DNA of 64,000 nucleotides, taken from the NCBI RefSeq assembly GCF_000003195.3, contig NC_012873.2, positions 26,075,317-26,139,316 on the forward strand. Reading direction: 5' to 3'. The notes below the pieces were generated by a model. That model did no database searches. It saw only the letters and a list, made by a program, of their open reading frames with translations, and had not been told where the DNA came from. Positions 2,616 through 60,420 of this stretch are shown piece by piece; the first letter of the stretch is position 1; every line of letters starts with the position of its first letter. This DNA comes from Sorghum bicolor (Eukaryota; Streptophyta; Magnoliopsida; Poales; Poaceae). The position numbers were made by a program, and so were the translations under genes.

Positions 2616-3085
2616 TGAAACAGAACTGCCCAAATTATAAGAGATTAAGCCTGATAGTGACCATTTGCACAGTCAAACTACCGAGCTTAAACCCATATAA
2701 TCTCGGTAGTCCGTGAAATCTCGAAGGATTTCAAACCACAATTCATACATACAGCCAAGATCGTAATAAGTTCAGCGGTCACCGTTCACAATTACATCCA
2801 GTTCACCACATTCATAAAATACATCGGTGTACTTAAAATTATTACAAACCAAGTTCTCAAGTAGTGGAAGCTTCATAATTTGAAAGTAACACACACATGT
2901 TTAGTTTGATACAGTGCCATAGTCGGTCATTCCCACAAAAGCAAAGGAGAAGGTAGAGTGACCATTGCCCTTGGTCTAGTCATCGCCCATTGCTGGGTAC
3001 AAGCAGAGGATGCAATAACCATAATACATTTGACCATCAGCAAAACAACATGGGAATAGAACCCTGAGTACGAGAATGTACTCAG
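2616..3085 (-). mobile_element. Element E 3' LTR, part 1 (terminal 470 bp)
   Basis: This is about 95.5 percent identical by eye (21 differences in 470) to 53187-53654, which abuts a primer binding site and so is the 3' end of the 5' LTR of element E. Orientation and order fit this being the outer end of the 3' LTR of E. The edge reads TGAAACAG. The stretch is cut at CTCAG (3081-3085) by the Athila-like insertion and resumes at 11458. Confidence 0.8.
3081..3085. repeat. Target-site duplication CTCAG, left copy (Athila-like element)
   Basis: CTCAG directly precedes the TG end of the element, and CTCAG again follows its CA end at 11458-11462. The uninterrupted site is seen at 53655, where ACTCAGCTAGAC runs through. 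Confidence 0.95.
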
Positions 3086-10185: not shown

Positions 10186-11457
10186 TGTTGGGTATTTTAA
10201 ACGCAAACAGAAAAATCCGCAAGCGCACGGATACCGATGTAGCTTGTATTCCAGAGTATCGATTTTCCACAGGGAACGTGAGTGTACTAATTAAGATCCA
10301 AGATCGCCCAATGATAACTATATGATTATTTTTGGTGGGAAGAGAGGAAGTTTCCTGAGAGTTCTCTAGTTGATCTAAGAATCAAGAATTACTTCAAGAT
10401 TATCTATTTCGGGACATCAGAACACTAACCACAGAAAGAGATGAGAAGGGGGCTAGGAAGGTCCGACTACGGTCCTACAAACACCGATCCGAACAAGGCG
10501 GAATACGTCGACCGTTAGGGCTGTCACTACCCTAGGGCTACCACAACAATCCGCAGGATTGGGTGCAATTCCAGGTAATTGCAAGACTAAACACCACGTC
10601 TAATCTATTAATTACTACTCTAATGTTGCAAAGATTAGAGCACTTGATGCAAGCGGGAATCCAATAAATAACTTGAATGTAAATGAAAGTAATTAAAGAA
10701 CTCAGGATTATGAATTGAAGAACCTGGAGAACGATGAAGAACGAACCAGTTGCTGCAAAAGTACAATGTTGAGGAAGATCCGACAGATCTGGCTCCTCCT
10801 CCTCCGCTCTCCTCTTCTCTCTCCCTATTTTCTAGATTACAACTAGAACTAACTAGAACTAGAACTAGAGGAACTAGAACTAGAACTAGATGAACTAGAA
10901 CTAGATCTAGATGAACTAGAGGTAGAACTAGAAGAACTAGAGGGATCCTCTCTACTTGGATGAAGACTTGAAACCCTAACTTAGATTCTGTAGAAGAGGT
11001 ATGATCTCCAGGGGCCAGGGGGCCTTGCTTATATAGTCCCTTCAAGTGAATCTGGGCCGTCGGATCAAACCGACATTGATCGTGTGGTTTTCCTTGAAGT
11101 ATTAGGTCGGTGGAGCATAATACGCGAAACGGGTCCGAATTGGACACTGTAGCTGGGCGGGCGCCCAGGAGAGTTGGCCGGGCGCCCTGCCTCCGAGCCG
11201 GATCGGCCTCCCGTTCGTTCCCGTGGCTTCTGGAGTCTTCTAGATGGTAGAAAATTGCGCGGCACGTTAATATCTCTATGTAAACCCGACGTGTGGGCCT
11301 TTCTTCCATAATTCCTGATAACCCCCTGCAGAAATAGACAAACACCAAAACTCGTGGAATTCTATCAGATAAAACCCTAAGTCTAGGTGTTGGTTGCATT
11401 TGGATCCTTTTCCATGATTAGTTGATGGTTAAATGTGAGCATTAAGGACCGTCAACA
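10186..11457 (-). repeat. Athila-like element, 5' LTR (right in window)
   Basis: 1272 bp with TG...CA ends, carrying the promoter end of the element. It includes a 21-bp segment near 11164-11184 (GGCGCCCAGGAGAGTTGGCC region) flanked by GGGCGCCC on both sides and absent from the other LTR, so slippage between the short repeats is the likely cause. The hexamer minisatellite lies at 10841-10943. Confidence 0.92.
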
Positions 11458-11462
11458 CTCAG
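11458..11462. repeat. Target-site duplication CTCAG, right copy
   Basis: Partner of 3081-3085. Directly after it the LTR of element E resumes (CTAGACTTACCC). Confidence 0.95.
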
Positions 11463-11995
11463 CTAGACTTACCCGTCATAAACCAAAATAAAGACTCTTC
11501 AAGGATCATGTAGGCTGTATGGTGGGGTAGCTGAGACTTTTTGCATAAAAGCATTATTCCAGTAAAATATAGCCTAGAGACCTTTCTTCTTTTAATTAGC
11601 TCAAGTTTGATAATATCATTACCTATTATCTAGGTTTGCACCTGTACTATTACAAACAAGTGTAGTAATATGATGGTACCCCATCATAGCATTCATAAAT
11701 CATTAATCATCATAACCCAAGTGTTCCATAGTCCTTACTACGAGGACGAAGCTCATGTCAAGTGCTCACTATCCAGGAGCGATGGCGGTTCGAATCGATT
11801 TCTAACTAGCTAGCGAGTTATTCCCCACACAAACCACACTCACTGATCAAGTGAGTTACAGATCACTATGTTACACTATCTAGGACCAATTTGCGGGTTC
11901 GGCAGCCACTGCCAGTACCCGAGGACCATTCCGGCGACCGAGGTATCCAAGGTATACCAAGGTTGCGCGCCGCGCCATCGTCGTTCTCCTCAACC
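11463..11995 (-). mobile_element. Element E 3' LTR, part 2, truncated by the CACTA insertion
   Basis: Matches 53660-54190 of the 5' LTR of E closely and stops at TCCTCAACC, where the CACTA terminus begins. The matching place in the other LTR continues ATCACCAATACAG. The remaining LTR, roughly 3 kb by comparison with related elements, is not found to the right of the CACTA. Confidence 0.78.
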
Positions 11996-12010
11996 CACTA
12001 CTACAGAATG
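11996..12010 (+). repeat. CACTA terminal inverted repeat (left end)
   Basis: CACTACTACAGAATG, the classic CACTA-superfamily terminus. It is preceded by ACC (11993-11995), which would be the 3-bp target duplication, but the partner cannot be checked because the right end is missing. Confidence 0.88.
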
Positions 12011-14562: not shown

Positions 14563-17293
14563 TGTAACACCCCAGTGTTATGGTTGCATCAAACATGTGC
14601 ATAGCATGAGCATCATCTTTTATTCAAAGCATCCATGATCATCATCTATCTTGAGACATGTCATCCTTTGCAAAAATGTGTTTTAAATGGCTTAAATAGG
14701 TTTCCTATGCTTATGTTTGAGTGAACAATGCTTGTGTTTGTGCTTAATGCGTTGGTAAATAGCTTATCTATGCTTAACTCAATCTTGGGAACAATGTTCA
14801 TGTTGATCACTTCTCCAAAATAATCACTTAAGTCATACTTATTCAAATAGACCCTAGAAACCTCTTTTGCTTAGGCTTTTAAAAAGTGTTTCATAAAATG
14901 TTTGCATGTCAAAACTTCCTACAGCAAAGTTGTAGCAAATTTTATAAGGAACAAAAGTTGTTTTATGGCCATCTCATGAAAATGACCACAAATAGCTCAA
15001 AGTGGCCCACAAGGCAGATTTGGGGCTGTTTTCCACACTTAGAAAATTTTCTAAGTCTTGGGGGCTTTGCAGTTTGCTCGAGGGGGTGTTCTTCACCTTC
15101 CCGTTTGAATTCTAGAGCGAATCAAGCCTTGATCTTGTAAGCAATGTTGGAGTACTCGTGTAGCTCTCCAGCATGGAGCAATTAGCCAGCAAAATCATCG
15201 AGTGATTAGGGAGTAAATCGTCGGGCAAAATCGAGTTTCAGTCGGCTCGGGGGAAACTGAATCGCGTCGTCGTCAGTCAGGGGAAGCTCGCCGGTGTGCC
15301 GCGTGTTGGACTCGTGGCGTCCGTACGTCGCCGTTGGCCCCGCCCGTCAGTCCTCCGCGCGTCCTTCATCTCGCCCCGGCGCCCCGGTCGCGTGGACAGA
15401 GCCATTTCCGCTCCCGGTGTCCTCTCTCTCTCTCTCGCGCGTCGTCGTTTCCGCGTCGCCGCCGTTGCTTCGGCGAGCTCGCGCGCGCGCATCTCCGTGT
15501 CTCCGGCCAAGCAGCTCGGTCCAGCGCTCCGCAAGCCTCTCCTCTCCACCGTCGTCGAGCTGGTTGCGACTGCCGAGCCTCGCTGAGCCCGCATTGCCTG
15601 CTCCGACGCGAGCTTACCTCGCCGGAGTTCTGCCATGGCCACCGGCGTCGTGGCCAGGGCTCTGTAGTCCACCATTCCTTCTCATTCTTGTCACAAAAGC
15701 TTCGCTAGGTCTTGCTGTTGCTCGTCCTCGTTCTCTTCTGCCCTGTCTCCGGCCAGAGACGCCGGCGGTCGGCCGCGCACCACCGCCGTGCCGCCATTCG
15801 CGAGGGCGAGGTACCTAGAGCTCGGTAGAGTTAGGGTTTTGGGTACCGCTAGATGCGGATTGCAGTGGGGAGCACGATGGTGCCCTCGGCCAGCACCGAG
15901 ACCTCGCCGTCGGCGAGATCTCCGGCGGTCAAGCCGCGCCTCTGCTTCTGGGTCACTGGCAGGTGGGGTCCGTTGACGCGCGGGTCCCCTCTGTCAGTCT
16001 CTCTTTCTCCTTTGTTTAAATCAGAGTTTGAGCTGATTTTGTAAAAATCATATCTCTAGTTCTAGTGATCCAAAATTTGTGAAACAAATTTTGTGTTGTT
16101 TCTTGAGATGGCTAGTATTTAATAAAAATATAAAATGAATCATGTTGTCTGAGAAATTATTTATTAAGGATTTAATCTTGTCATTTATGGATAAATGCAT
16201 ATCTCTGGTTTTACTGATTAGTTTGCTCTGAAATTTTTATGGTGGTCTTTGCATGGCATTAGAATGCTCTGATAATTATTTCATGATTTTTGGAGCATTG
16301 CAGTTGTGATATGTGATTTGTGTTTGAAATATGGCTTGTTTCTTTAATTAAATCACATAAAATAATGGGTGCTTAGGCTGGTGCTCTATTTTGGTGGTAA
16401 ACTTGTTTATGGTATTCCTAAGATGTAAATAATCTGAAATCTGTTGTTTGACACTATATAAGTCATGTCTATGAATTTATGAGATAAATGCCTTGATACA
16501 TGTTAAATGCATATCTTTAATTTGGCATGTGCAATGGTCCTGAAATTTTTATGGTGGTGATCTGATGTTATACTTGTGCCTCTGTAATTTTTGTAGATTT
16601 TTCTGAGCACTTTAACTAATATCTTGTAAATATGCCTTATCAAAAATTAATTAATAAATACCTTGTTAAGTAATTGTTTTGGGGTTTTCAACTGATGATC
16701 TGGTGACCTTGTAATATGTTTGTGCTCATGAGTCATATGGTTGGCATGGTGTGTGTTTTGATCATGTCATTAAATAATTAACTATAGGGTTAAATGCTGT
16801 CTGGACAGCAAGTGAGTACTTTAACTTTGCTTAATGATAATTTGACTTTCTGTGAAACTTGTATAAAACAAAGTTGTTCTAAACTTGTTGAACTAACTGT
16901 GGTTCAAATTTGAGGTCATTTGGCCAAGTAGTTTAAAAGTTATAGCTGTTCCAAGTTGGGTTCCAGAAATAGGGATTCTCTGTTTTTCTGGGACAGAACC
17001 TGGAACTTTGTTAAAATGACTAGTTTAATGTTTGAATCTTGCTGTCATGTTTAAAGATGAGTTGTAGACAATTTCCTAAGCTTTCCAGAATGTCCTTACT
17101 CATGTTTGTTGGACCTGTCTATCTATAATTATGATTTATTTACTGAGCATACTTGTTTTATGTTGTTTGCTGCTTTAGTGCCATGATAGGTTTTGGGTTA
17201 TGTTAGCTTGTTTATTCATGTGAGTAGTATAACTCTTACTCCGTAAATGAGTGCCCAGTGAGTTGCTTGTGTTATTAAGCATTCATCTGTAGC

Positions 17294-17527
17294 ATGTGCA
17301 CCTTCTCATTCATCGAGCATGCAATAGGTGCACCGGACGTGGCAGTTTCCTTCGAGCTCCAAGCGAACCCCGAAGGCCAGGAAGGCAGCCAGGAGGTGGA
17401 GGTCCAGCAAGCCGGACTCAAGGAGCCCGAAGAAGAAGTTGAGTGCCCGCATCACGAGCCGGCATCGTTCGTGAAAGGCAAGCCCCGGAGCATTCTAAGC
17501 CTCCTCTATTTTCAAAAGTTTACTTAA
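17294..17527 (+). other. Small LTR-internal ORF (77 codons), copy in T1 5' LTR
   Basis: Acidic, glutamate-rich reading frame (EGQEGSQEVEVQQ, then EEEVECPHHEPASFVKGKP). The same frame is open in the T1 3' LTR (28375-28608) and, about 12 percent diverged at DNA level over the core, in T2 (57113-57364) without indels. It is GC-richer than its surroundings. No family recognised; it could be an exon of a longer LTR transcript or chance. Confidence 0.35.
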
Positions 17528-17799
17528 TACGTTATATCTATTGATGCATTACGTATAGGAGTTGTGATGAAAATGTTGCTGCATTCTACCCTATCCTTGT
17601 CCAGATAACTTACCCTCCCCGGTTGTAGAGTTAGGTCCGAGTAGCAGCTTAGTTATGCTTTAACCGGTAGAAGTCGGGTGATATTCTGTCATCCGCGCGA
17701 TATAGGGTTGTGTCGGGTCGCGATGGTCTATATGTGCTATCGTGGATGGAACCTGATTAAATTGATTTAAGCCGGGCGGAGTTTTGCAAGTTTGTAGTG

Positions 17800-18230
17800 A
17801 CTCCGTCTGTGGCAGCTAAGGACCGATCGTTGTACGTCCTCTTGTCATGTTGAACGCATGCCTGACACTTAGTTGGCCGGATAACTCGTTTCGACCGCGA
17901 AGCCGAGTAGTATGACTCAGGCCGGAAGACCGGCAAGTATAAAGTGCGCACTACCGGAGGAAGTGCGGTGTGCGGGGGACCATTGGCGTAAGCCCAAAGG
18001 CAGGTGAGTTAAAATTCCTGACCTCCCTGGCAGAGTGGTAGCCCTAGGAGTGCGGCGCTGATCGGAGCCGCGATTCCTGAGTTGTACCAAAGGTGACCCG
18101 TTGGCTCTCCGGCAGGGGATGCTTGGGTGAGTGCTAGGAATAAACCTCCAGCTGGATAGGAATTCGATTCGAATCGCCGTCTCTCCCGGTTAGTGAGAAC
18201 TTGACAGAGCAGCGGCAAACGTAGCATTCA
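17800..18230 (+). other. Conserved LTR block of the Tekay-type elements
   Basis: This stretch is kept at roughly 90 percent or better between T1, T2 (about 57600-58050) and F (about 61160-61600, inverted) while flanking LTR sequence drifts strongly. It contains TGGCAGAGTGG at 18028-18038 and GATTCGAATCG at 18166-18176, which resemble the A and B boxes of RNA polymerase III genes, though 127 bp apart. No tRNA cloverleaf is formed. It could be promoter or RNA-structure sequence under selection. Confidence 0.45.
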
Positions 18231-18976
18231 CTAATAAACTTGGTTCATGATAATGATGATAGCAAGAAGAACATATGATGAAATTGATATGGTTATTATT
18301 GTTTGGAATAATCAAGTGATGTGTTGTAGTACAGGTGCTAATCTAGTGGTAGGCTGATGATAAATAAATCTGATGCTCTTAAAATGACTTAGTGGTAAGT
18401 TAAGCTTTTGGCAAAGAGGTGAGTCAACCAGCTCCACTTAAAATTCAGCCTTGCATGATCCTTGGTGTCTTTTATGTTTTACTAGACGGGTAAGTCTAGC
18501 TGAGTACATCCTCGTACTCAGGGTTTATTCCCACCTGTTGCAGATGATATCTTCTATGACGGTTTCTGCAAGACCTGTCTCCATCCCGCTGGGGATGAGG
18601 ACTAACCGTTGGGCACGGTTCTCTAATCTTCTCGTCTATGATGCTTTTGGGAGGATGATCTAGACTCTGGCAGTAACAAACTTGTGAACTGAACTTTGAA
18701 CAAGTGTGTGTACTTATTTTGCTTCCGCTACTTCGAACAAGTGTTGTAATAACTTAATACTCCGATGTGGTGCCGCTTCGACGGCAATGAATGACTATGT
18801 AACATTCGTTGTATTTATGTTGAACTATTACGATCTGGGTTTGTTGCGAGTTGGTTTGAAGTCCTTCGTGATTTCGATTGACTACCGGGATTATATGGGC
18901 TCAAGTTTAGAAACTTGATTGTTTGACGATCGTTTCTGCACTTGAACTCTTATAATTTGGTCGGTTCTGTGACAGC

Positions 18977-18988
18977 TGGCATCGGAGC
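18977..18988 (+). other. T1 primer binding site (initiator tRNA-Met-like)
   Basis: TGGCATCGGAGC begins two bases after the LTR. The usual plant methionine-tRNA site is TGGTATCAGAGC, so there are two differences. T2 and F share both; E has only the second (TGGTATCGGAGC). Confidence 0.75.
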
Positions 18989-19793
18989 AAGTTCAGCATT
19001 ATAAATGCAGCGTTTGTGTATTTAAAACAAAAGAATTTTGAAATAAAATGGTGTAAAACAAATAATTAAGTTATGCCAGTGGTCGAATCCTCCTTGCCCA
19101 TATAAGGACTCTAGGTGGCTATGTAAGTACTGACTTGGGGGGTTTTATTTATGCATCTCCGGCAGTACTCAGGTATGGATGTGTGATGACCGCACTATGC
19201 TACCCTGTGGTCTAATGGTGGAGGTAGCCTTCATATGTGAATTAGCCACATATGTCGCTAGATTTAAATTATGCAACGTCGCACCTACGCTCAGGTAAGT
19301 GTGAGCTGTGAGAGCATGATCGTCCAAACGGCGGTCTAGGGGAGTGTTCGCGGTGGTTTTCTGGAGTGGTCACATGTCGAAACCATGGAGCCACGAAAGA
19401 AACTTAATTGGGGAGTATTTAATTTCTCGGGTAGTGGTGGTGTCATTGTTGGGACATGTTGGGCATGTCCAAGCAATGTGCACTTAGTCTACTGCTTTCT
19501 TGAGTGATATATATTTGGAACTGTTGGGCTGAAATGAAGTTTTCTGCAGGTACTCTAACAGCGCACGTGTAAACCGATAGTTACCGTATCAAGAGACGAA
19601 TGTATGCCACCGTATATCCGTTAGAATATTAATTTTCTAAGTTTGTGAGGACGTACGGTTCGTGCATGCATCATGTCGCATTCATACATACATTCTGTCT
19701 GCTCCTTCCCTTACAATTTCGTCCCTTTTTAAATAAATAAATGTGCTTCCACTAATCCTCTTTTACCCATGGTATTCCTATTCCTTTCCACAG
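18989..19793 (+). other. T1 leader with candidate intron 19550-19793
   Basis: The 5' untranslated region between LTR and ORF1, with no protein-like frame. A donor-like CAG|GTACTC lies at 19547-19552 and is conserved in T2, E and F. A pyrimidine-rich stretch (TTCCTATTCCTTTCCACAG) ends immediately before the ORF1 ATG. Splicing would remove 244 nt, including an upstream out-of-frame ATG at 19770. Confidence 0.6.
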
Positions 19794-20879
19794 ATGGACG
19801 CACCCGCCTCACCTCGTCCCAGTGACACTTTCTTGCACGAGTTTGGCACTCCTACCCTGCTCTGGAGAGTGTTACGGACTGTTGGGTACACTGAGCCACC
19901 TCAGTATTCTTGGTGGGAGATGGAGAGCACAGGAGGGATCCAGTGGTTTGGTGTGCAGGGAGTTGTCCCTCCACATGGGGACAAGCCTGCATGGACAGGC
20001 TGGACGTGCAGCTCAGATGGGCAGACTCCCTGGGAGGCAGCTCAGGTTGCGGCCCAGACTATCCTGCTAGATATATGTCAGAGGTGTGGTGACGAGCTGA
20101 CGGGAGGACCAGCGGCCTCCATTCCTAGTGCTGACCCAGCAGCCGCGGAGTGGAAACAGGCTGATGGTTGTGCTTTGGTTCGAGGTAGAGGAGAGAGAGC
20201 TGAGAGCACTAGTCCTGCTATGAGTGCTATGATGGCTGTACTCAAGCTGATCAGTCAGCGAGAGGGCACCTATGCACAGGTGATGGTGGCTGTTCGCAGG
20301 GCCCAGGAGATGCAGCGGAAGGCTGAAAAGCGTGCTCGCAAGTTTCGCAAGCAAGCTAGACTCCTGGAGCAAACTCAGAAGGACCGCAATGACTGGGAGG
20401 ACATAGCGGAGTACCGTAGACAGCAGTGGGTGAAGGCCATTAGAGAGAGAGATCATAAGCAGGATCAGATGAGCCAGTTAGCTCGAGAGAGGGAGACTTT
20501 GCAGGAGCGCTTGGTGCAGCTCACCCGTGAGAGGGATACTGCACTCCGTGTGTCGGAGAACAGGCGCCGAGCATGGGAGATGCACCGAGTTCAGTCGCTT
20601 GAGCGGGAGAACTATCTACAGGGTCAGATTGAGGCTGGTCTTGTGGAGATTCACCGTCTCAACAACTTGCTACACCCTATTCCTCGCCCTATACCCGTGT
20701 ATCCAGAGGTGGGACCTCAGGTGATTGTGGCCGATGATGATGGTATGGAGGTTGATGGACCAGCAGCGGCTGCACCACCTTTACACGAGGACGTGGAGGA
20801 CGAGGAGCTGGAGCCGGTTAGCGACGAGGATGGAGAGGCGATCTTCGACGCTGATTCGGACGACGAGCCTGGAGTGTAG
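19794..20879 (+). CDS. T1 extra ORF upstream of gag (ORF1), coiled-coil protein, 361 aa
   Basis: An intact 361-residue reading frame between the leader and gag. The start MDAPASPRPSD is chosen because the ATG follows an acceptor-like CCACAG and a T2 homologue starts at the same place. Residues about 10-110 look globular and tryptophan-rich (LLWRVLRTVGYTEPP, PAWTGWTCSSDGQTPWEAAQ). Residues about 140-300 are highly charged with heptad-like spacing, a long predicted coiled coil (QRKAEKRARKFRKQARLLEQ, then RDHKQDQMSQLARERETLQE). The tail is strongly acidic (EDVEDEELEPVSDEDGEAIF). No known retrotransposon domain is recognised. A homologue with the same three-part layout lies at the same position in E (51331-52374) and its beginning is in T2. 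Maintenance as one frame across diverged elements argues for a real protein, possibly an RNA-binding or particle accessory protein. Confidence 0.82.
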   Translation: MDAPASPRPSDTFLHEFGTPTLLWRVLRTVGYTEPPQYSWWEMESTGGIQWFGVQGVVPPHGDKPAWTGWTCSSDGQTPWEAAQVAAQTILLDICQRCGDELTGGPAASIPSADPAAAEWKQADGCALVRGRGERAESTSPAMSAMMAVLKLISQREGTYAQVMVAVRRAQEMQRKAEKRARKFRKQARLLEQTQKDRNDWEDIAEYRRQQWVKAIRERDHKQDQMSQLARERETLQERLVQLTRERDTALRVSENRRRAWEMHRVQSLERENYLQGQIEAGLVEIHRLNNLLHPIPRPIPVYPEVGPQVIVADDDGMEVDGPAAAAPPLHEDVEDEELEPVSDEDGEAIFDADSDDEPGV

Positions 20880-21235
20880 GGAGTAGTGAGTAGTTGCTGC
20901 CAAGATCTTTTGTTGTATGCCAGTCGCTGTGGTGCTTTTGTAACCATGTTGTAATCCGAAACTTTGACCTTGACCCATGGCATGTACTGTAAGGGTGTAA
21001 TAACTTCATGGACCCTATGTGCAGTCTTTATGATCGTTATGTTATGTCGATGTTTTCCGTTGTGGTGCGTATTGCGGATATCTATGTCGTGTGTTGGATT
21101 GGTGATGTTGTTTTGTGGAATGGAATTGTTGTGCCTTTCTGTAAAGCTATTCTCTCGAATGCTTTCAGGCATGAATATAAGTTCTTCTACAGCAAATCTT
21201 GTCATCATCAATGCTCACTGACTGTGTCTTTTCAG
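20880..21235 (+). other. T1 region between ORF1 and gag
   Basis: 356 bp without a convincing gene. The gag-pol frame is open back to 21008, but its first part is not Gag-like. The region ends CTGACTGTGTCTTTTCAG directly before the gag ATG, a good acceptor with a branch-point-like CTGAC 15-20 nt upstream. Confidence 0.6.
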
Positions 21236-24200
21236 ATGTCTCGTGGCACCCGAGGTGCGGAACAATGTGCAAACATGAATCCACCACCTCCTCCTCCACT
21301 ACCAAATCCAGCTGAGCTGATGCAAATGATGGTGGAAAATCAGAGGATGCTCACTGAGACCATCAATCGGATGGCAAATCAGGGTGGCCGTAATGCACAG
21401 GAAGGGCCAGCTCCTAACCAGTATAGTAGTTTCAAGGACTTCATGGATACGAAGCCCCCACCTTTCAGAGAAGCTGAAGAACCCCTTCAAGCTGAAGAGT
21501 GGCTGAATACGGTGGAACAAAAGTTTCGCCTACTCCGTTTGACTGAAGGTTTGAAGGCGGAGTATGCCGCTCATCAACTGCAAGGGCCGGCAGGCATCTG
21601 GTGGAATCAGTACCGGGAAGCTCTACCGCCTGACACGGTGATTGATTGGAATCTTTTCCGTGAGGCGTTCAAAGGGCATTTCATTCCTCCGGGTGTTATG
21701 GAGATGAAGCACACCGAGTTCATGCAGCTGACTCAGGGCAACAAGACTCGGAAGGAGTATTTGCATGCTTTCAATCACTTGTCTAGGTATGCTCCTGAGT
21801 TTGTGGACACGGAGACGAAAAAGATCGCTAGTTTCAAGCGGGGTTTGGGTCCCAAATTGCTGAAGACTATGGGCCGCACTAAGTGTGCAACTTTCAATGA
21901 GTTTGTCAGTGATGCTCTTACTCAAGAGAATTATAACACTGTGTACACTGCGACCAAGACTCGCAAGAGGGCTTTTGAGGCCGGGGCAGGATCATCTCAG
22001 TCCAAGGCTCCAGTGGCAGCTAAGCCACCATTCCGTGCTCCAACCCCCAACCAGCGATACCGCCCTCCGATGAAGAAGAATCAGGCAAAGACGGGTTTTC
22101 GCAAGGGGTACTCTATTGCTCTTCCTAGGGGCAACACGGGGCCCAACTATGCCAAGACTCCACCTGCCAACCGTCCGTGCTGGAACTGCAATCAGACCGG
22201 GCATTGGCAGAGCAACTGTCCTTACCCGCCAAAGAAGGGCAACCAGGGGAACGTCCGTCAGGGGCGTGTTCATTACACCACTGTGGAGGCAATCCCTGCT
22301 GGTGAGGTAGTCACGGCTGGTAAGTTTCTGGTCAATCAACATGATGCACTCGTGCTTTTTGATTCTGGAGCATCGCATTCTTTTGTGAGTTCTGAATTTA
22401 TATCTAAGCATAGCATCAAGACCATCACACTTGATAAGGGCAGTTATTGTATTAGTGCTGCGGGAAATGATAGTTCCACCAATCAAGTGGTTTTGGGGGA
22501 AACTCTGGATATAGGAGGCCGTCAGTTTCTTGCTGATCTGGTTGTTTTACCCGGTGTGGGCATAGATGTAATTCTGGGGATGAAGTGGATGAGTGGTAAT
22601 GGAGTTCTTATTGACACCACCACTCGCGTAGTGATGTTGAAAGACCCAGATACCAAGGAGGCATTTCTAGTGCAACTTCCTCGTGATATTCAAATCCGTA
22701 GCACTGTGAATGCAGTTACCTCTAAGGCTATTCAGGATATTCCGGTGGTGTGTGAGTTTCCGGATGTCTTTCCTGATGATCTACCCGGGCTTCCTCCGGA
22801 TCGGGATGTGGAGTTTAAAATTGAATTGATTCCAGGCACCGCTCCGATCTCTAGAAGACCTTATAGGATGCCGCCCAATGAATTAGCTGGGCTTAAGACC
22901 CAACTAAATGAGTTGTTGCAGAAGGGTCTTATTCGTCCTAGTTCTTCTCCCTGGGGTTGTCCGGCTATCTTTGTGAAGAAGAAAGATCAATCTTTGCGCA
23001 TGTGTGTGGACTATCGTCCCCTAAATGCGGTGACAATCAAGAACAAATACCCTCTCCCTCGCATTGACATCCTGTTTGATCAGTTGTCTAAAGCTAAGGT
23101 ATTCTCCAAGATTGATTTGCGATCTGGGTACCATCAAATCAAGATCCGTCTCGAAGATATACCTAAGACGGCTTTCTCGACGAGGTATGGGTTGTATGAG
23201 TACCTTGTCATGTCCTTCGGGCTTACGAATGCACCTGCTCATTTCATGTATCTTATGAATTTGGTGTTCATGCCCGAATTGGACAAGTTTGTAGTGGTCT
23301 TCATTGATGATATCTTGGTATATTCTTGCAATGAAGAGGAGCATGCTGAGCATCTGCGTGTAGTGTTGTCGCGTTTGCGCGAACATCAGCTTTATGCTAA
23401 GTTTAGCAAATGCGAGTTTTGGCTAAAGAAAGTACCTTTCTTGGGCCATGTCTTATCTGAAGAAGGCATATCAGTAGATCCGGCTAAGGTGCAAGAGGTA
23501 CTGGATTGGAAAGTTCCAACTTCGGTACACGAGGTTCGGAGTTTTCTCGGTCTGGCTGGGTATTACCGTCGATTTATTCTGGAGTTCTCCAAAATATCCA
23601 AGCCTATGACTCGTCTACTTCAGAAAGATGAAAAGTTTGTGTGGACACCTGAGTGTGAAGAGGCATTCCACAAGCTAAGGACACTGTTGACATCAGCTCC
23701 TGTCCTAGCTCAACCTGATATCGAGAAGCCTTTCGATGTCTTTTGTGACGCATCCGGCATTGGTTTAGGTTGTGTGTTGATGCAGGAAGGTCGTGTCATC
23801 ACGTATGCCTCGCGCCAACTTCGAAAGCATGAGGTCAATTACCCCACTCATGACTTAGAATTGGCAGCAGTTGTGCATGCTTTAAAAATCTGGAGGCATT
23901 ATCTGCTGGGTAATCTGTGTAATATCTACACCGATCATAAGAGCCTCAAGTATATCTTCACTCAACCTGAACTGAACATGCGGCAGCGAAGGTGGCTTGA
24001 GTTGATTAAAGACTATAATCTCCAAGTGCACTATCATCCGGGCAAGGCAAACGTGGTGGCGGATGCCTTGAGTCGGAAAGCGCATTGTCACTCAATCCGA
24101 GTAGAAGATCCGTTGTTGTCACATCTTATGCATCCACTTGTGCTCAACCAGATTTCTCTGGAAAGTACCATTCGCAATCGAGTCATCGAATTGCAGCAGA

Positions 24201-25600
24201 CAGATGTAGGCATCTACCATATCAAGAGAAAGATGAAAGAAGAAGAAACCAAGCATTTCCGGGTTGATGAAAATGGAATTCTTTGGTTCAAGGATCGACT
24301 TGTGGTCCCAAAAGACCGCGAGCTGCGAAATCAGATCTTATCTGAAGCTCATTCATCCAAAATGTCTATCCATCCTGGTAGTAGCAAGATGTATCAGGAT
24401 CTGAAACCTTTGTTTTGGTGGACAAAGATGAAAAAGGAGATAGCGGCTTTCGTCGCTCGCTGTGACAATTGTTGTCGCGTGAAGGCTGTTCACATGAAAG
24501 CTGGTTTGCTTCAACCCTTGTCAATTTCTGGTTGGAAATGGGAAGAAGTCAGCATGGATTTCATCAGTGGACTCCCAACTTCTGTTAAGGGTTATGACTC
24601 TATCTGGGTGGTTGTAGATCGTTTGACCAAGGTTGCTCGATTTATTCCAGTCCGAACTGATTATCGTCCTCATCAGTATGCGGAGTTGTATTTCGAGCAC
24701 ATTGTTCGTCAGTATGGTGTGCCTCGAACAATCATATCTGATCGTGGACCACAGTTCACTGCTCGTTTTTGGGAATGTCTTCATGAGCAGATTGGTACTC
24801 ACTTGGTCCGCAGCTCTGCTTATCATCCCCAAACAGCAGGTCAAACTGAACGAGTCAACCAGATCCTTGAAGATATGTTGAGGGCATGTGCTCTCTCATC
24901 AAAAGGTTCTTGGGTCAAGTGGTTGCCATTAGCTGAGTTCTCCTACAACAACAGTTATCAGGAGAGTATCAAAATGGCTCCATTTGAAGCCTTGTACGGT
25001 CGAAAGTGTCGAACCCCTTTGAACTGGGTAGAAGCTGGAGAGCGAAGATACTACGGCATCGATTTCGTGAACGAAGCGGAGCAGAAAGTCCGTGTTATCC
25101 AGCAACACCTGGAAGCTGCTCAAGCTCGTCAGAAAAGTTATGCCGACAAGAGAAGGAAGCCGATTGAGTATTCGGTTGGTGACCATGTGTACATCAAGGT
25201 GTCTCCGATGAAGGGTGTACAAAGGTTCGGAGTCAAGCGAAAGCTTGCGCCTCGCTATGTGGGACCTTATCGGATTCTCAAAAAGAAAGGGAATGTGGCA
25301 TACAAAGTTCAACTTCCAGTTGCGCTTCGAGCTATCTTCCCTGTTTTCCACGTATCACAATTGAAGAAGTGCCTTCGTGTACCGGAGGAACGAGTGGAAA
25401 TTCGAGATATCAAGTTGAAGTCAGACTTGGTGTATGAGGAGAAACCCGTAGCGATTCTTGATCGCAAGGAACGGGAAACGCGTAATCGTGTGGTTAAACT
25501 CTACAAGGTGTTGTGGAGCAACCACGGGGAAGAAGATGCCACTTGGGAGACGGAGGATTATTTAAAAGAAGTTTACAAAACCTTCTTCGAAAATCAGTAA
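21236..25600 (+). CDS. gag-pol: T1 gag-pol polyprotein with chromodomain, intact, 1454 aa
   Basis: The start [10 protein letters not shown] is chosen over upstream codons because it follows TTTTCAG and matches the start of gag in E (MVQTRGGG). Order: Gag with the conserved [13 protein letters not shown] and LQGPAGIWW segments, CCHC knuckle [14 protein letters not shown] (near residue 315), aspartic protease DSGASHSF (near 376), reverse transcriptase with FIDD (near 690), RNase H ([13 protein letters not shown], near 837), integrase finger (near 1040-1080) and D-D-E core in [17 protein letters not shown] and GQTERVNQ (near 1107-1204), then a C-terminal chromodomain ([16 protein letters not shown]). 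The chromodomain and CCHC pattern place it in the Tekay/Del chromovirus clade. Chromodomains there are thought to steer integration to heterochromatin. No disabling change is visible. Confidence 0.96.
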
Positions 25601-25641: not shown

Positions 25642-25642
25642 C

Positions 25643-28600
25643 TGTAACACCCCAGTGTTATGGTTGCATCAAACATGTGCATAGCATGAGCATCATCTTT
25701 TATTCAAAGCATCCATGATCATCATCTATCTTGAGACATGTCATCCTTTGCAAAAATGTGTTTTAAATGGCTTAAATAGGTTTCCTATGCTTATGTTTGA
25801 GTGAACAATGCTTGTGTTTGTGCTTAATGCCTTGGTAAATAGCTTATCTATGCTTAACTCAATCTTGGGAACAATGTTCATGTTGATCACTTCTCCAAAA
25901 TAATCACTTAAGTCATACTTATTCAAATAGACCCTAGAAACCTCTTTTGCTTAGGCTTTTAAAAAGTGTTTCATAAAATGTTTGCATGTCAAAACTTCCT
26001 ACAGCAAAGTTGTAGCAAATTTTATAAGGAACAAAAGTTGTTTTATGGACATCTCATGAAAATGATCACAAATAGCTCAAAAGTGGCCCACAAGGCAGAT
26101 TTGGGGCTGTTTTCCACACTTAGAAAATTTTCTAAGTCCTGGGGGCTTTGCAGTTTGCTCGAGGGGGTGTTCTTCACCTTCCCGTTTGAATTCTAGAGCG
26201 AATCAAGCCTTGATCTTGTAAGCAATGTTGGAGTACTCGTGTAGCTCTCCAGCATGGAGCAATTAGCCAGCAAAATCATCGAGTGATTAGGGAGTAAATC
26301 GTCGGGCAAAATCGAGTTTCAGTCGGCTCGGGGGAAACTGAATCGCGTCGTCGTCAGTCAGGGGAAGCTCGCCGGTGTGCCGCGTGTTGGACTCGTGGCG
26401 TCCGTACGTCGCCGTTGGCCCCGCCCGTTAGTCCTCCGCGCATCCTTCATCTCGCCCCGGCGCCCCGGTCGCGTGGACAGAGCCATTTCCGCTCCCGGTG
26501 TCCTCTCTCTCTCTCGCGCGCGTCGTCGTTTCCGCGTCGCCGCCGTTGCTTCGGCGAGCTCGCGCGCGCGCATCTCCGTGTCTCCGGCCAAGCAGCTCGG
26601 TCCAGCGCTCCGCAAGCCTCTCCTCTCCACCGTCGTCGAGCTGGTTGCGACTGCCGAGCCTCGGTGAGCCCGCATTGCCTGCTCCGACGCGAGCTTACCT
26701 CGCCGGAGTTCCGCCATGGCCACCGGCGTCGTGGCCAGGGCTCTGTAGTCCACCATTCCTTCTCATTCTTGTCCCAAAAGCTTCGCTAGGTCTTGCTGTT
26801 GCTCGTCCTCGTTCTCTTCTGTCCTGTCTCCGGCCAGAGACGCCGGCGGTCGGCCGCGCACCACCGCCGTGCCGCCATTCGCGAGGGCGAGGTACCTAGA
26901 GCTCGGTAGAGTTAGGGTTTTGGGTACCGCTAGATGCGGATTGCAGTGGGGAGCACGATGGTGCCCTCGGCCAGCGCCGAGACCTCGCCGTCGGCGAGAT
27001 CTCCGGCGGTCAAGCCGCGCCTCTGCTTCTGGGTCACTGGCAGGTGGGGTCCGTTGACGCGCGGGTCCCCTCTGTCAGTCTCTCTTTCTCCTTTGTTTAA
27101 ATCAGAGTTTGAGCTGATTTTGTAAAAATCATATCTCTAGTTCTAGTGATCCAAAATTTGTGAAACAAATTTTGTGTTGTTTCTTGAGATGGCTAGTATT
27201 TAATAAAAATATAAAATGAATCATGTTGTCTGAGAAATTATTTAGTAAGGATTTAATCTTGTCATTTATGGATAAATGCATATCTCTGGTTTTACTGATT
27301 AGTTTGCTCTGAAATTTTTATGGTGGTCTTTGCATGGCATTAGAATGCTCTGATAATTATTTCATGATTTTTGGAGCACTGCAGTTGTGATATGTGATTT
27401 GTGTTTGAAATATGGCTTGTTTCTTTAATTAAATCACATAAAATAATGGGTGCTTAGGCTGGTGCTCTATTTTGGTGGTAAACTTGTTTATGGTATTCCT
27501 AAGATGTAAATAATCTGAAATCTGTTGTTTGACACTATATAAGTCATGTCTATGAATTTATGAGATAAATGCCTTGATACATGTTAAATGCATATCTTTA
27601 ATTTGGCATGTGCAATGGTCCTGAAATTTTTATGGTGGTGATCTGATGTTATACTTGTGCCTCTGTAATTTTTGTAGATTTATCTGAGCACTTTAACTAA
27701 TATCTTGTAAATATGCCTTATCAAAAATTAATTAATAAATACCTTGTTAAGTAATTGTTTTGGGGTTTTCAACTGATGATCTGGTGACCTTGTAATATGT
27801 TTGTGCTCATGAGTCATATGGTTGGCATGGTGTGTGTTTTGATCATGTCATTAAATAATTAACTATACGGTTAAATGCTGTCTGGACAGCAAGTGAGTAC
27901 TTTAACTTTGCTTAATGATAATTTGACTTTCTGTGAAACTTGTATAAAACAATGTTGTTCTAAACTTGTTGAACTAACTGTGGTTCAAATTTGAGGTCAT
28001 TTGGCCAAGTAGTTTAAAAGTTACAGCTGTTCCAAGTTGGGTTCCAGAAATAGGGATTCTCTGTTTTTCTGGGACAGAACCTGGAACTTTGTTAAAATGA
28101 CTAGTTTAATATTTGAATCTTGCTGTCATGTTTAAAGATGAGTGGTAGACAATTTCCTAAGCTTTCCAGAATGTCCTTACTCATGTTTGTTGGACCTGTC
28201 TATCTATAATTATGATTTATTTACTGAGCATACTTGTTTTATGTTGTTTGCTGCTTTAGTGCCATGATAGGTTTTGGGTTATGTTAGCTTGTTTATTCAT
28301 GTGAGTAGTATAACTCTTACTCCGTAAATGAGTGCCCAGTGAGTTGCTTGTGTTATTAAGCATTCATCTGTAGCATGTGCACCTTCTCATTCATCGAGCA
28401 TGCAATAGGTGCACCGGACGTGGCAGTTTCCTTCGAGCTCCAAGCGAACCCCGAAGGCCAGGAAGGCAGCCAGGAGGTGGAGGTCCAGCAAGCCGGACTC
28501 AAGGAGCCCGAAGAAGAAGTTGAGTGCCCGCATCACAAGCCGGCATCGTTCGTGAAAGGCAAGCCCCGGAGCATTCTAAGCCTCCTCTATTTTCAAAAGT

Positions 28601-30055
28601 TTACTTAATACGTTATATCTATTGATGCATTACGTATAGGAGTTGTGATGAAAATGTTGCTGCATTCTACCCTATCCTTGTCCAGATAACTTACCCTCCC
28701 CGGTTGTAGAGTTAGGTCCGAGTAGCAGCTTAGTTATGCTTTAACCGGTAGAAGTCGGGTGATATTCTGTCATCCGCGCGATATAGGGTTGTGTCGGGTC
28801 GCGATGGTCTATATGTGCTATCGTGGATGGAACCTGATTAAATTGATTTAAGTCGGGCGGAGTTTTGCAAGTTTGTAGTGACTCCGTCTGTGGCAGCTAA
28901 GGACCGATCGTTGTACGTCCTCTTGTCATGTTGAACGCATGCCTGACACTTAGTTGGCCGGATAACTCGTTCTGACCGCGAAGCCGAGGAGTATGACTCA
29001 GGCCGGAAGACCGACAAGTATAAAGTGCGCACTACCGGAGGAAGTGCGGTGTGCGGGGGACCATTGGCGTAAGCCCAAAGGCAGGTGAGTTAAAATTCCT
29101 GACCTCCCTGGCAGAGTGGTAGCCCTGGGAGTGCGGCGCTGATCGGAGCCGCGATTCCTGAGTTGTACCAAAGGTGACCCGTTGGCTCTCCGGCAGGGGA
29201 TGCTTGGGTGAGTGCTAGGAATAAACCTCCAGCTGGATAGGAATTCGATTCAAATCGCCGTCTCTCCCGGTTAGTGAGAACTTGACAGAGCAGCGGCAAA
29301 CGTAGCATTCACTAATAAACTTGGTTCATGATAATGATGATAGCAAGAAGAACATATGATGAAATTGATATGGTTATTATTGTTTGGAATAATCAAGTGA
29401 TGTGTTGTAGTACAGGTGCTAATCTAGTGGTAGGCTGATGATAAATAAATCTGATGCTCTTAAAATGACTTAGTGGTATGTTAAGCTTTTGGCAAAGAGG
29501 TGAGTCAACCAGCTCCACTTAAAATTCAGCCTTGCATGATCCTTGGTGTCTTTTATGTTTTACTAGACGGGTAAGTCTAGCTGAGTACATCCTCGTACTC
29601 AGGGTTTATTCCCACCTGTTGCAGATGATATCTTCTATGACGGTTTCTGCAAGACCTGTCTCCATCCCGCTGGGGATGAGGACTAACCGTTGGGCACGGT
29701 TCTCTAATCTTCTCGTCTATGATGCTTTTGGGAGGATGATCTAGACTCTGGCAGTAACAAACTTGTGAACTGAACTTTGAACAAGTGTGTGTACTTATTT
29801 TGCTTCCGCTACTTCGAACAAGTGTTGTAATAACTTAATACTCCGATGTGGTGCCGCTTCGACGGCAATGAATGACTATGTAACATTCGTTGTATTTATG
29901 TTGAACTATTACGATCTGGGTTTGTTGCGAGTTGGTTTGAAGTCCTTCGTGATTTCGATTGACTACCGGGATTATATGGGCTCAAGTTTAGAAACTTGAT
30001 TGTTTGACGATCGTTTCTGCACTTGAACTCTTATAATTTGGTCGGTTCTGTGACA
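25643..30055 (+). repeat. T1 3' LTR
   Basis: 4413 bp, more than 99 percent identical to 14563-18974 by eye. Differences are scattered single bases and two one- or two-base length changes (for example the CT repeat near 26505). It carries the same small ORF (28375-28608) and conserved block (about 28880-29310). Confidence 0.94.
28375..28608 (+). other. Small LTR-internal ORF (77 codons), copy in T1 3' LTR
   Basis: The same frame as 17294-17527 with one residue changed (HHEP to HHKP). Being a reverse-transcription copy of the same LTR, it adds no independent evidence for coding. Confidence 0.3.
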
Positions 30056-46397: not shown

Positions 46398-46520
46398 CTT
46401 TGTATGAAACTATATTTGAGAATTGTGAATTTTGATGTGTGTAACAAACTTTGTATTCATGACTTTGTATTCATGACTTTTCCAATTGTTAGAGATCATC
46501 AATTGCAAAAATTGTCATGA
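46398..46520 (+). other. CACTA 3' flank of the transposase
   Basis: AT-rich downstream sequence with GTATTCATGACTTTTCCA-type words that also occur in the tandem repeat that follows. Confidence 0.5.
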
Positions 46521-48190
46521 CTATATGTGTCAATTGTGGATTTTCAACTACACCTTCCCAAAACTTTGTCAAATGCAAAAATGGTCTATATATGAAATGT
46601 AGATTTTGATGAGTGGAACAATATTGGTATTCATGACTTTTCCATTCGAGACCATCTAGGATTCCGAAACCGCTGCGTGGCTATGAGTTCTATGAAAATT
46701 AAAAATTCAGTGGTTCAAACTTTTCCAAATGAAAAGTTGACCATTAGACAAAATGTAGAACTTGATGAGTGTAGCAAACTTTGTATTCATGACTTTTCCA
46801 TTTGGAACAATCTAGGGTTCGGTCAAAGGGTGTGTTTGTAAAAACCAATGCTTTGACTTTGGTCAAACTTGATCAAATGGCCCATTTGATGACATCAAAT
46901 GAAAAAGTTTGAATACAAAGTTGTTAGAGATCATCAAGATCTACATTTGATATATTGACCATTTTTCCATTTTGATAAATTTGAGCCAATCCTAAGCACA
47001 TTTCTATAAAATCCAAGACGGGTTTTGGTCAAACTTGGTCAAATGACAAACTAAATTACTTCAAATGAAAAAATTTTGAATACCAAGTTGTTAGATATCA
47101 TCAATATCTAAACTTTTTATACACACAATTTTTCCATTTGAGAAAGTTTAAGTTAACAATACCCACCAATTCTTGAATCCCACACAAACTAAATGAAACT
47201 ATATGTGTCAATTGTGGATTTTCAACAACACCTTCCCAAAACTTTGTCAAATGCAAAAATGGTCTATATATGAAATGTAGATTTTGATGAGTGGAACAAT
47301 ATTGGTATTCATGACTTTTCCATTTGAGACCATCTAGGATTCCGAAACCGCTGCGTGGCTATGAGTTCTATGAAAATTCAAAATTCAGTGGTTCAAACTT
47401 TTCCAAATGAAAAGTTGACCATTAGACAAAATGTAGAACTTGATGAGTGTAGCAAACTTTGTATTCATGATTTTTCCATTTGGAACAATCTAGGGTTCGG
47501 TCAAAGGGTGTGTTTGTAAAAACCAATGCTTTGACTTTGGTCAAACTTGATCAAATGGCCCATTTGATGACTTCAAATGAAAAAAGTTTGAATACAAAGT
47601 TGTTAGAGATCATCAAGATCTACATTTGATATATTGACCATTTTCCATTTGGATAAATTTGAGCCAATCCTAAGCACATTTCTATAAAATCCAAGACGGG
47701 TTTTGGTCAAACTTGGTCAAATGACAAACTAAATTACTTCAAATGAAAAAATTTTGAATACCAAGTTGTTAGATATCATCAATATCTAAACTTTTTATAT
47801 ACACAATTTTTCCATTTGAGAAAGTTTAAGTTAACAATACCCACCAATTCTTGAATCTCACATAAACTAAATGAAACTATATGTGTCAATTGTGGATTTT
47901 CAACTACACCTTCCCAAAACTTTGTCAAATGCAAAAATGGTCTATATATGAGATGTAGATTTTGATGAGTGGAACAATATTGGTATTCATGACTTTTCCA
48001 TTCAAGACCATCTAGGGTTCCGAAACCGCTGCGTGGCTATGAGTTCTATGAAAATTCAAAATTCAGTGGTTCAATCTTTTCCAAATGAAAAGTTGACCAT
48101 TAGACAAAATGTAGTACTTTATGAGTGTTACAAACTTGGTATTCATGACTTTTCCATTTGGGACAATCTAGGGTTCGGTCAAAGGGTGTG
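46521..48190. repeat. 678-bp tandem repeat in the CACTA 3' region, about 2.5 copies
   Basis: Copies start at CTATATGTGTCAATTGTGG at 46521, 47199 and 47877, exactly 678 bp apart. The third copy breaks off near 48190. Identity is high, with only scattered differences. Each unit itself holds two related halves built on GTATTCATGACTTTTCCATT followed by a CATCTAGG or AATCTAGG word. No ORF is conserved through the copies. Confidence 0.93.
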
Positions 48191-52374: not shown

Positions 52375-53172
52375 CTGCTGAAAAGAGAATACCTTGGGTA
52401 AGATTGAGAATTATCTTTTATTATCTTAATTGGAATTGGGACAGATTTTCAATTAAGGGGAGGAAGTAAGCAATGTCATAGAATGAACATGATGCATGCA
52501 CGAACTTACGATCTGACAAACTTAGAAACAAGGTCAACACTAATCGGTATATGCGGTGGCACACAACGTTCTCTCATAACGTAACTAGCGTTCTAGGTGG
52601 CAACGTGGTTAGTGTACCTGCAGAAAACTCATTTTAGCCCAACCACAGTATGAACATGCAGAACAAGAATTTAAATCTACACACCCCACATGCATAGACA
52701 CCTCTCCCATGCATATGGTGTGTTACTACCCACATCATCGCCCTAGTGACGGCATCGCCTCTCGGGACGGAATCTCCCAACATGCGGTACTGTTCCCAGA
52801 CACACCAAACATGTGTGCATGACACAGCACCTAACAACACTTCCCTAGATCGGTAGTGTATCCGATCATGCTCTCACAGCTCCCACTTACCGAGGCGTAG
52901 AGGAAGAATTGATCCATACATTACCACTCAAATGAATGGTACTCATACTATGAGCGACGAAATAGAAATATGATGCATTAACCCCCAAGTCAGTACTTAA
53001 CTACCCACCTTAGAGTCCTTAACTGGGCATAAAGGATATGACCATGGCACACTAGATAGTTTTCCAAAAACTTAGTTTAACACCTTGATTATCATTAATT
53101 AATAATAATCTTTTATTAAACCGGTTTAAGGTGAGCTAGAACGTACTTATGAATAGTAACTCACTAAACCTT
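52375..53172 (-). other. Element E leader with candidate intron 52375-52617
   Basis: The untranslated region between primer site and ORF1. The conserved CAG|GTAC donor-like site is at 52614-52620 (minus strand). Splicing to the ORF1 acceptor would remove 243 nt, close to 244 nt in T1 and 249 nt in T2. Confidence 0.6.
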
Positions 53173-58816: not shown

Positions 58817-59622
58817 AAGTTCAGCATTATAAATGCAGCGTTTGTGTATTTAAAAACAAAAGAGTTTCTAAATAAAATGGTAAATCAACACTTAAGTTAT
58901 GCCAAAGGTCGAATCCTCCTTGCCCATATTAGGACTATAGGTGGCTATTTAAGTACTGACTTGGGGGGTTTTATTTATGCATCTCCGGCAGTACTCAGGT
59001 ATGGATGTGTGATGACCGCACTATGCTACCCTGTGGTATAATGGTAGAGGTAGCCTTCATATGTGAATTAGCCACATATGTCACTAGATTTAAATTATGC
59101 AACGTCGCACCTACGCTCTGGTAAGTGTGAGCGGTGAGAGCATGATCGTCCAAACGGCGGTCTAGGGAAGTGTTCGCGGTGGTTTTCTGGAGTGGTTACA
59201 TGTCAAAACCATGGAACCATGAAAGAAACTTAATTGGGGAGCATTTAATTTCTTGGGTAGCTGTGGTGTCATTGTTTGTGCATGTTGTGCATGTCCAAGC
59301 AATGTGCACTTAGTTTACTGCTTTCTTGAGTGATATTTTGGGAACTGTTGGGCTGAAATGAAGTTTTCTGCAGGTACTCTAACAGCGCACGTGTAAATCG
59401 CTAGTTATCGTATCGAGAGACGAATGTATGCCACCGTATATCCGTTAGAATATTAATTTATCTAAGTTTGTGAGGACGTACGGTTCGTGCATGCATCATG
59501 TCGCATTCATACATACATTCTGTCTACTCCTTCCCTTACAATGTCGTCCCTTTTAATTAAATAAATAAATGTTGCTTAAACTAATCCTCTTTTACCCATG
59601 GTATTCCTATTCCTTTGCACAG
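58817..59622 (+). other. T2 leader with candidate intron 59374-59622
   Basis: Homologous to the T1 leader. It retains TTTTCTGCAG|GTACTC at 59364-59379 and a pyrimidine tract ending TTTGCACAG immediately before the ORF1 ATG. Confidence 0.6.
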
Positions 59623-59748: not shown

Positions 59749-59848
59749 NNNNNNNNNNNNNNNNNNNNNNNNNNNNNNNNNNNNNNNNNNNNNNNNNNNN
59801 NNNNNNNNNNNNNNNNNNNNNNNNNNNNNNNNNNNNNNNNNNNNNNNN
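59749..59848. other. Assembly gap of 100 N
   Basis: Exactly 100 N, a conventional placeholder, so the real length is unknown. T2 enters from the left and element F from the right, in opposite orientations. Confidence 0.98.
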
Positions 59849-60420
59849 TAGTCGTTAGCTACAACAATCTACGCATTCGTGGTTAGCGTACCTGCAGAAA
59901 ATTTCATTTCAGCCCAACCCAACAATGATATAAGTGCATGAAATGAAACACTAGACTCTAGGTTGAAAGCTAAATGCTCCCACAACTCACACTTACCTGA
60001 GCGTAGGTGCAACGTTACAAAATTTAAATCTATCAACATATATGGCTAATTCATATATGAGGGCTACCTCCACCATTTGACCACATGGTAGCATAGTGCG
60101 GTCATTATACATACATACCTTGGCCTGGGCGTAGATGTAAATTGATCCATACATTACCACTCAAGTGAATGGCATCCATACAATAGCACGCCGTATGGAC
60201 GACGAAATAAAAATTGCAGTAAGTAAATCCCCCCATAGTTAGTACTTAACTAAGCCACCTAAAGGTCCTTAGTTGGGCATAGAGGAATGACCACTGGCAT
60301 ACTTAGATTAAAAGTTCAGATTTGAACACACCTATATATAGCTATAAGTTGTCAAAACTGATTTTTATAAAGAAAAGCTTTGTTTTAAATACACATGTGA
60401 CATGTTTACTGTTGAACCTT
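59849..60420 (-). other. Element F leader
   Basis: Reverse-oriented counterpart of the T1 leader, with TTTTCTGCAG|GTACGC (minus strand) around 59888-59897. It is more diverged than T2. No ORF1 sequence is left on this side of the gap. Confidence 0.7.

Follow-up and report, generated by a model that had tools for sequence, protein, structure and literature searches.

Long terminal repeat (LTR) retrotransposons of plants generally lack introns, and the exceptions include Ogre and EVADE (2025 review, PMC12786077). Additional open reading frames (ORFs) in retrotransposons have been reviewed (PMC7264820), and an ORF upstream of gag-pol is already known for Retrosat2 and its kin. Rice Retrosat2, RIRE3 and RIRE8 and their homologues in maize and sorghum (Tekay, ORF0/5'aORF) possess this extra ORF together with LTRs of ~3 kb or more, as do the elements described here (passages of PMC3485330). 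In the literature passages found, the expression of the Tekay ORF upstream of gag is unexplained, and among the papers and passages that our literature search covered there is no report of leader splicing in Tekay elements, which is not proof of absence. Here, we describe a 64,000-nucleotide stretch of Sorghum bicolor DNA (contig NC_012873.2, positions 26,075,317 to 26,139,316; hereafter the window) that appears to consist of nested LTR retrotransposons, in which four related elements share splice-like signals in the leader. Tekay elements belong to the most abundant elements of grass genomes. New in this lineage would be an intron conserved in the leader, together with acceptors placed at start codons, acting through a mechanism that we infer.

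The likeness to the Retrosat2 group extends beyond the general layout. The starts of the LTRs, TGTAACACCC and TGTCACACCC, agree by eye at 9/10 positions and the last ten bases at 6/10 (compared with passages of PMC3485330). The group differs in that leader splicing is not described in the main text of PMC3485330 or PMC11728184 that was available. Splicing has been described in other LTR elements. BARE1, a Ty1/Copia element of barley, is partially spliced at conserved CAG/GT and CAG sites, and splicing in the present elements is proposed by analogy with it. Its 104-nt intron lies at the gag end and was shown by cDNA, whereas the intron here lies in the leader and is predicted (passages of PMC3735527). 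As in elements of the BARE1 and EVD kind, the GT and AG sites are conserved in diverged copies (4/4). In Caenorhabditis elegans, Cer1 produces a spliced mRNA coding for an extra protein beside the unspliced genomic RNA. Its CERV protein is needed for the export of genomic RNA, while the role of ORF1 here is putative (passages of PMC10309623). Two sunflower LTR elements are spliced, with Tekay absent from the expressed set (passages of PMC7730604), and the spliced GAG RNAs of triticale are mostly Copia (passages of PMC7765848). Ogre, of the Tat lineage, has a partly spliced intron. It reportedly carries an ORF upstream of gag as well.

The four elements are T1 and its related copies T2 (forward strand), E and F (both reverse strand). 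Their assignment to the Tekay/Retrosat2 type is made from the domains, the extra ORF and the LTRs (longer than 3 kb) of T1. In T1, all on the forward strand, a primer-binding-site-like sequence (PBS), TGGCATCGGAGC (18977..18988), which we take to be of the tRNA-iMet type, is followed by ORF1 (19794..20879, 361 amino acids), a 5' additional ORF between leader and gag, and by gag-pol (21236..25600), which encodes a CCHC gag, reverse transcriptase (RT)/RNase H and a terminal chromodomain. The leader is defined here as the region from the PBS to ORF1. The reading that we prefer, at a confidence a little short of even, is that the leader of these elements holds a GT-AG intron running from a donor, D1 (CAG|GTAAGT, the bar marking the splice boundary), to an acceptor, A1 (TTTTCTGCAG|), and that acceptor-like CAGs abut the ATGs of ORF1 and gag. 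In T1 the proposed intron would span 19295..19549 (forward, 255 nt), with conserved ends and an unconserved interior. Its homologues would be 59121..59373 in T2 (forward, 253 nt), 52618..52890 in E (reverse, 273 nt) and 59892..59996 in F (reverse, 105 nt).

Donors were ranked by their U1 duplex among the GTs of each leader. The GTAAGT of D1 lies at 19295..19300 in T1 (forward; last exon base 19294), with homologues at 59121 in T2 (forward), 52890 in E (reverse) and 59996 in F (reverse). Within the conserved donor G|GTAAGTG, it ranks 1, 1, 2 and 1 in the leaders of T1, T2, E and F, the site that outscores it in E being AAG|GTGGGT at 53008. Over longer regions, which take in LTR and coding sequence as well, its ranks are 1, 3, 3 and 1. 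On both strands of the window together, the motif GGTAAGTG has four occurrences, every one at D1. The candidate acceptor A1 consists of a branch-like CTRAA and TTTTCTGCAG (19523..19549 in T1, forward), and its right edge is the point that an earlier, sequence-only reading of this DNA had taken for a donor. It ranks first as an acceptor in 4/4 leaders, among 42, 42, 50 and 32 AGs in T1, T2, E and F, respectively.

Conservation across the leaders coincides with these sites. At a width of 25 columns, the A1 block heads the leader alignment in conservation, with the PBS second and the D1 block third; the A1 block is also first at 40 columns. Identities in the D1 block are 0.87 (T1-E), 0.87 (T1-F) and 0.74 (E-F), and in the A1 block 0.90, 0.90 and 0.92, while the interior between them falls to 0.46, 0.57 and 0.39 with 35-170 gap columns. 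Ends that are kept around an interior that varies in both sequence and length form an intron-like pattern. The variable bases of D1 are exon positions -3/-2, and on the intron side of A1 a stretch of ~27 nt with branch-like and pyrimidine character is kept, GTTGGGCTRAAATGA-RTTTTCTGCAG, where an acceptor needs it. A further block, at 19095-19143, is strongly conserved in all four copies and reads AGGACTCTAGGTGGCTA..TAAGTACTGACTTGGGGG in T1.

The start codons provide the second set of candidate sites. The sequence-only reading had noted an AG before each visible ORF1 or gag ATG, and this holds in the stricter form that CAG precedes 5/5 of them: CCACAG before the T1 ORF1 ATG (19794, forward), GCACAG before that of T2 (59623, forward), TTCAGCAG before that of E (52374, reverse), TTTTCAG before the T1 gag ATG (21236, forward) and AATGCAG before that of E (51005, reverse). 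Of the 2482 ATGs in the window, 39 come directly after a CAG (1.6%) and 162 after an AG (6.5%). The five cases are not independent, since T1 and T2 share ancestry and the gag genes of T1 and E are homologous. The CAG abutting ORF1, A2 (last base 19793 in T1, forward), scores second among the leader acceptors in the 3/3 copies that have it (T1, T2 and E). The CAG abutting gag, A3 (last base 21235 in T1, forward), ranks 9/418 AGs in T1 and 8/247 in E over the longer regions, and in T1 a better-scoring acceptor-like AG ends at 21168 in the same spacer between ORF1 and gag. Although T1 and E differ just before the gag ATG, both retain the CAG, with CTGAC (as in T1) or CTAAC upstream. The ORF1-gag spacers are rich in T (0.38 in T1 and 0.39 in E, compared with 0.20 in T1 ORF1 and 0.23 in T1 gag), as plant introns are (passages of PMC3735527).

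Under the proposed mechanism, which extends from the observed motifs, conservation and ranks to the use of the sites and the pairing of donor with acceptor, the spliceosome of the host would connect a donor lying upstream, in the LTR or at D1, with A1 or with the acceptor-like site at ORF1 or at gag. Part of the RNA would be left unspliced to serve as the genome, and splicing would set the ratio of ORF1 to Gag-Pol. The splice-like signals in the leader could thus let one RNA yield several messages. If the reading is correct, a conserved leader intron whose acceptors adjoin the start codons would explain, in a way open to testing, how an ORF upstream of gag is expressed, and it would offer a route to make a protein with a dsRBD-like fold separately from Gag.

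In structural models, ORF1 is a protein with a dsRBD-like fold. Residues 18-99 (19845-20090) model as an alpha-beta-beta-beta-alpha fold of this kind, and a long helix and acidic tail come after it. A Pfam search of T1 pieces at E up to 1 listed no dsRBD. A long helix together with a DRBM-like part, as in the ORF1 model, has been reported for the 5'aORFs of Zea and Sorghum (passages of PMC3485330 and PMC11728184), and a dsRBD-like fold has been suggested before for grass Tekay elements. Fifteen relatives of ORF1 were found, as proteins only. Four stretches in viral_contigs that matched the ORF1 pattern were rejected, as none encodes an ORF1 relative.

Several observations weigh against a leader intron. 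Only four copies are available, representing about three independent lineages, the alignment blocks were drawn after the alignment had been seen, and the acceptor weights and branch consensus were assumed rather than derived. Over the longer regions, A1 ranks 1, 1, 4 and 3. The acceptor strength was matched in 65, 65, 85 and 72 of 300 leader shuffles and the donor strength in 0, 32, 64 and 0 of 300 (T1, T2, E and F). The interval from D1 to A1 is not clearly richer in T than that from the PBS to D1 (0.31/0.30 in T1, 0.33/0.31 in T2, 0.29/0.35 in E and 0.38/0.33 in F). Moreover, the identity of T1 and E is also low at 18975-19094 (0.52) and 19144-19284 (0.46), and the block at 19095-19143, which has no assigned splice role, is as conserved as the splice-site blocks (0.84-0.89). 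Because other stretches are equally diverged and this block is equally conserved, the intron reading is weakened, and explanations by a packaging hairpin or by the absence of splicing are strengthened. Finally, with D1 as the donor, 13, 12, 7 and 17 ATGs still follow the PBS in T1, T2, E and F, so that a splice within the leader does not by itself make ORF1 or gag accessible to scanning. Either a donor in the LTR is joined to the ORF1 and gag acceptors, or initiation is not plain scanning. What supports the intron is that position, rank and conservation coincide across the four copies, rather than how strong the signals are.

The best surviving alternative, which we consider unlikely while giving it real weight, is that the conserved blocks are not splice sites and instead serve as signals for packaging or dimerisation of the genomic RNA, with a hairpin whose arms are GUUGG and CUAAC and a loop that holds the palindrome CUGCAG. 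Around A1 in T1 a possible hairpin spans 19521..19561 (forward; arms 19521-19527 and 19555-19561, 27-nt loop), and the four copies can form stems of 7, 7, 9 and 6 bp with loops of 26-27 nt (T1, T2, E and F). The blocks sit just past the PBS. Retroviral packaging signals lie just after the PBS. Conservation past GTAAGT exceeds the needs of a donor, and the hairpin explanation also accommodates the conserved block at 19095-19143. The consensus fold has 13 pairs, of which 2/13 are changed on both sides, and one stem pair is T-A in T1 and T2 and G-C in E and F; however, 10/13 pairs do not vary among the four copies and are therefore uninformative. In the three copies folded, the folding energy was no better than that of shuffles (z -0.15 in T1, 0.90 in E and 0.90 in F), and the stem leaves the GTAAGT block and the CAG|ATG sites unexplained. 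A hairpin or packaging role and splicing can coexist.

Less likely still is that no splicing occurs. The unspliced RNA would then be translated into ORF1 and gag through reinitiation, shunting or internal entry, and the CAGs would be leftovers. Retrosat2 is expressed by RT-PCR, and in the passages of PMC3485330 available a term for splicing appears only in a reference title. Between the PBS and D1, the leader is not poor in ATGs and is therefore unlike an ordinary scanned leader: the 13, 12, 7 and 17 counted there compare with 6.3, 6.2, 5.9 and 8.5 in shuffles (T1, T2, E and F; the T1 interval being 18975-19294). These counts were matched by 1 (T1), 9 (T2), 0 (F) and 183 (E) of 500 shuffles, an excess in T1, T2 and F that is not clear in E. 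A start codon with C at -3 stands in a poor context. That CAG nevertheless stands ahead of 5/5 ATGs, and that the donor and the acceptor are both conserved and high-ranking, argues against leftovers of this kind.

The sequence-only reading had instead made CAG|GTAC a single donor, spliced to either the ORF1 or the gag acceptor to give two messages, which now appears improbable. Its motif positions are all present (19549/19550 in T1, 59373/59374 in T2, 52618/52617 on the reverse strand in E and 59892/59891 on the reverse strand in F), and the intron lengths that it gave, 244, 249 and 243 nt for ORF1 and 1686 and 1612 nt for gag, agree with the coordinates. The wider motif TTTTCTGCAGGTACNCTAAC, at up to 3 mismatches, has four matches in the 64 kb on both strands, all exact and all at the leader sites, compared with 0.03 expected in shuffles; the bare CAGGTAC is found 9 times in the window, and 4 of these lie in leaders. 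GTAC is invariant in 4/4 copies, its U1 duplex has the same energy of -7.1 kcal/mol in all four, and acceptor-like CAGs do abut the ATGs. As a donor, however, the site is middling: it ranks 4, 4, 5 and 3 among 72, 71, 77 and 48 leader GTs (T1, T2, E and F), below D1 each time, and 19/514, 8/392, 10/261 and 7/160 over the longer regions. The motif common to the leaders is TTTTCTGCAG|GTACnCTAAC, in which the sole variable base is donor +5 (T, T, A and G in T1, T2, E and F) and +4 is C. Conservation reaches ~27 nt into the would-be exon, where a donor needs three bases. The same sequence outranks every other acceptor in the leader, and 105-273 nt upstream there is a conserved donor that is stronger. 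Nor would a splice from CAG|GTAC remove one upstream ATG and bring gag to the first position, as had been expected: in T1, T2 and E the stretch taken out contains 6, 7 and 4 ATGs, respectively, and the interval from the PBS to that donor retains 20, 20, 20 and 19 (T1, T2, E and F). What stands of that reading is the presence of conserved splice-like signals in the leader, and what is not supported is CAG|GTAC as the donor and ORF1 or gag as the first ATG.

A variant in which A1 is a recursive splice point, the D1-A1 join regenerating CAG|GTAC (as it would in T1 and F, a point that also favours the single donor) before a second splice to the ORF1 or gag acceptor, is very improbable; it would keep the earlier donor as a second step, the choice of second acceptor would decide whether the message is for the dsRBD-like ORF1 or for Gag-Pol, and unspliced RNA would serve as the genome.

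The LTR of T1 contains further features that resemble splice sites and promoters. A donor-like CAG|GTGAGT at 18004 is found in T1, T2 and F and not in E, and a donor-like CGG|GTAAGT at 18490 in T1, E and F; acceptor-like AGTACAG (18334) and TTGCAG (18543) are found in all four copies. The transcription start could not be fixed from the T1 LTR sequence. Promoter candidates are TATAAAG at 17938, together with the CAG|GTGAGT at 18004, and a GC-rich stretch at 15200-16000. The region 17803-18163, which holds the TATAAAG, is 95% identical between T1 and F, compared with 76% over the aligned LTR end (17476-18990), and the long T1-F alignment begins at 17476, just ahead of GGCAAGCCCCGGAGC. The composition at 15200-17500 is gene-like, with a GC-rich part at 15.2-16.0 kb, a T-rich AT stretch to ~17.25 kb and then a GC-rich piece. 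An open frame at 17300-17530 was rejected as coding by eye, since many amino-acid changes separate T1 from T2 and there is no clear sign of coding.

By blastn self-comparison, the 5' LTR of T1 occupies 14563..18974 (forward, 4412 nt, with TGT...ACA ends) and the 3' LTR 25642-30055 (forward), the two being 99.3% identical. Given this likeness and the open ORF1 and gag-pol, T1 was probably recently mobile. Pfam searches of pieces of T1, the only copy covered, matched PF03732, PF00098, PF00078 and PF17919 in gag-pol, corresponding to a Ty3/gypsy gag CCHC, RT and RNase H, and the chromodomain PF00385 at the integrase end was barely over its cut-off (25.7 bits against 25.1). A run of 100 Ns at 59749-59848 separates T2 from F. 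Because both copies meet this gap, ORF1 of T2 is cut and F is visible only ~40 nt past A1. The adjacency of T2 and F across the run may be an assembly join.

Beyond the window, the 20-nt leader pattern had no matches in viral_contigs and two in genome_contigs, L001 (an archaeal bin) and L002 (Oceanobacillus), where ~2 are expected by chance in 257 billion bases. By eye, the L001 match falls at an acyl-CoA dehydrogenase-like gene and was taken as chance. Elsewhere in the window, 2619-3085 and 11457-12006 match the 5' LTR of E at 95-96%, resembling one 3' LTR of E split by another element. A direct repeat is present three times at 46520-48175, with a spacing of 678 nt and 300 nt of each reported.

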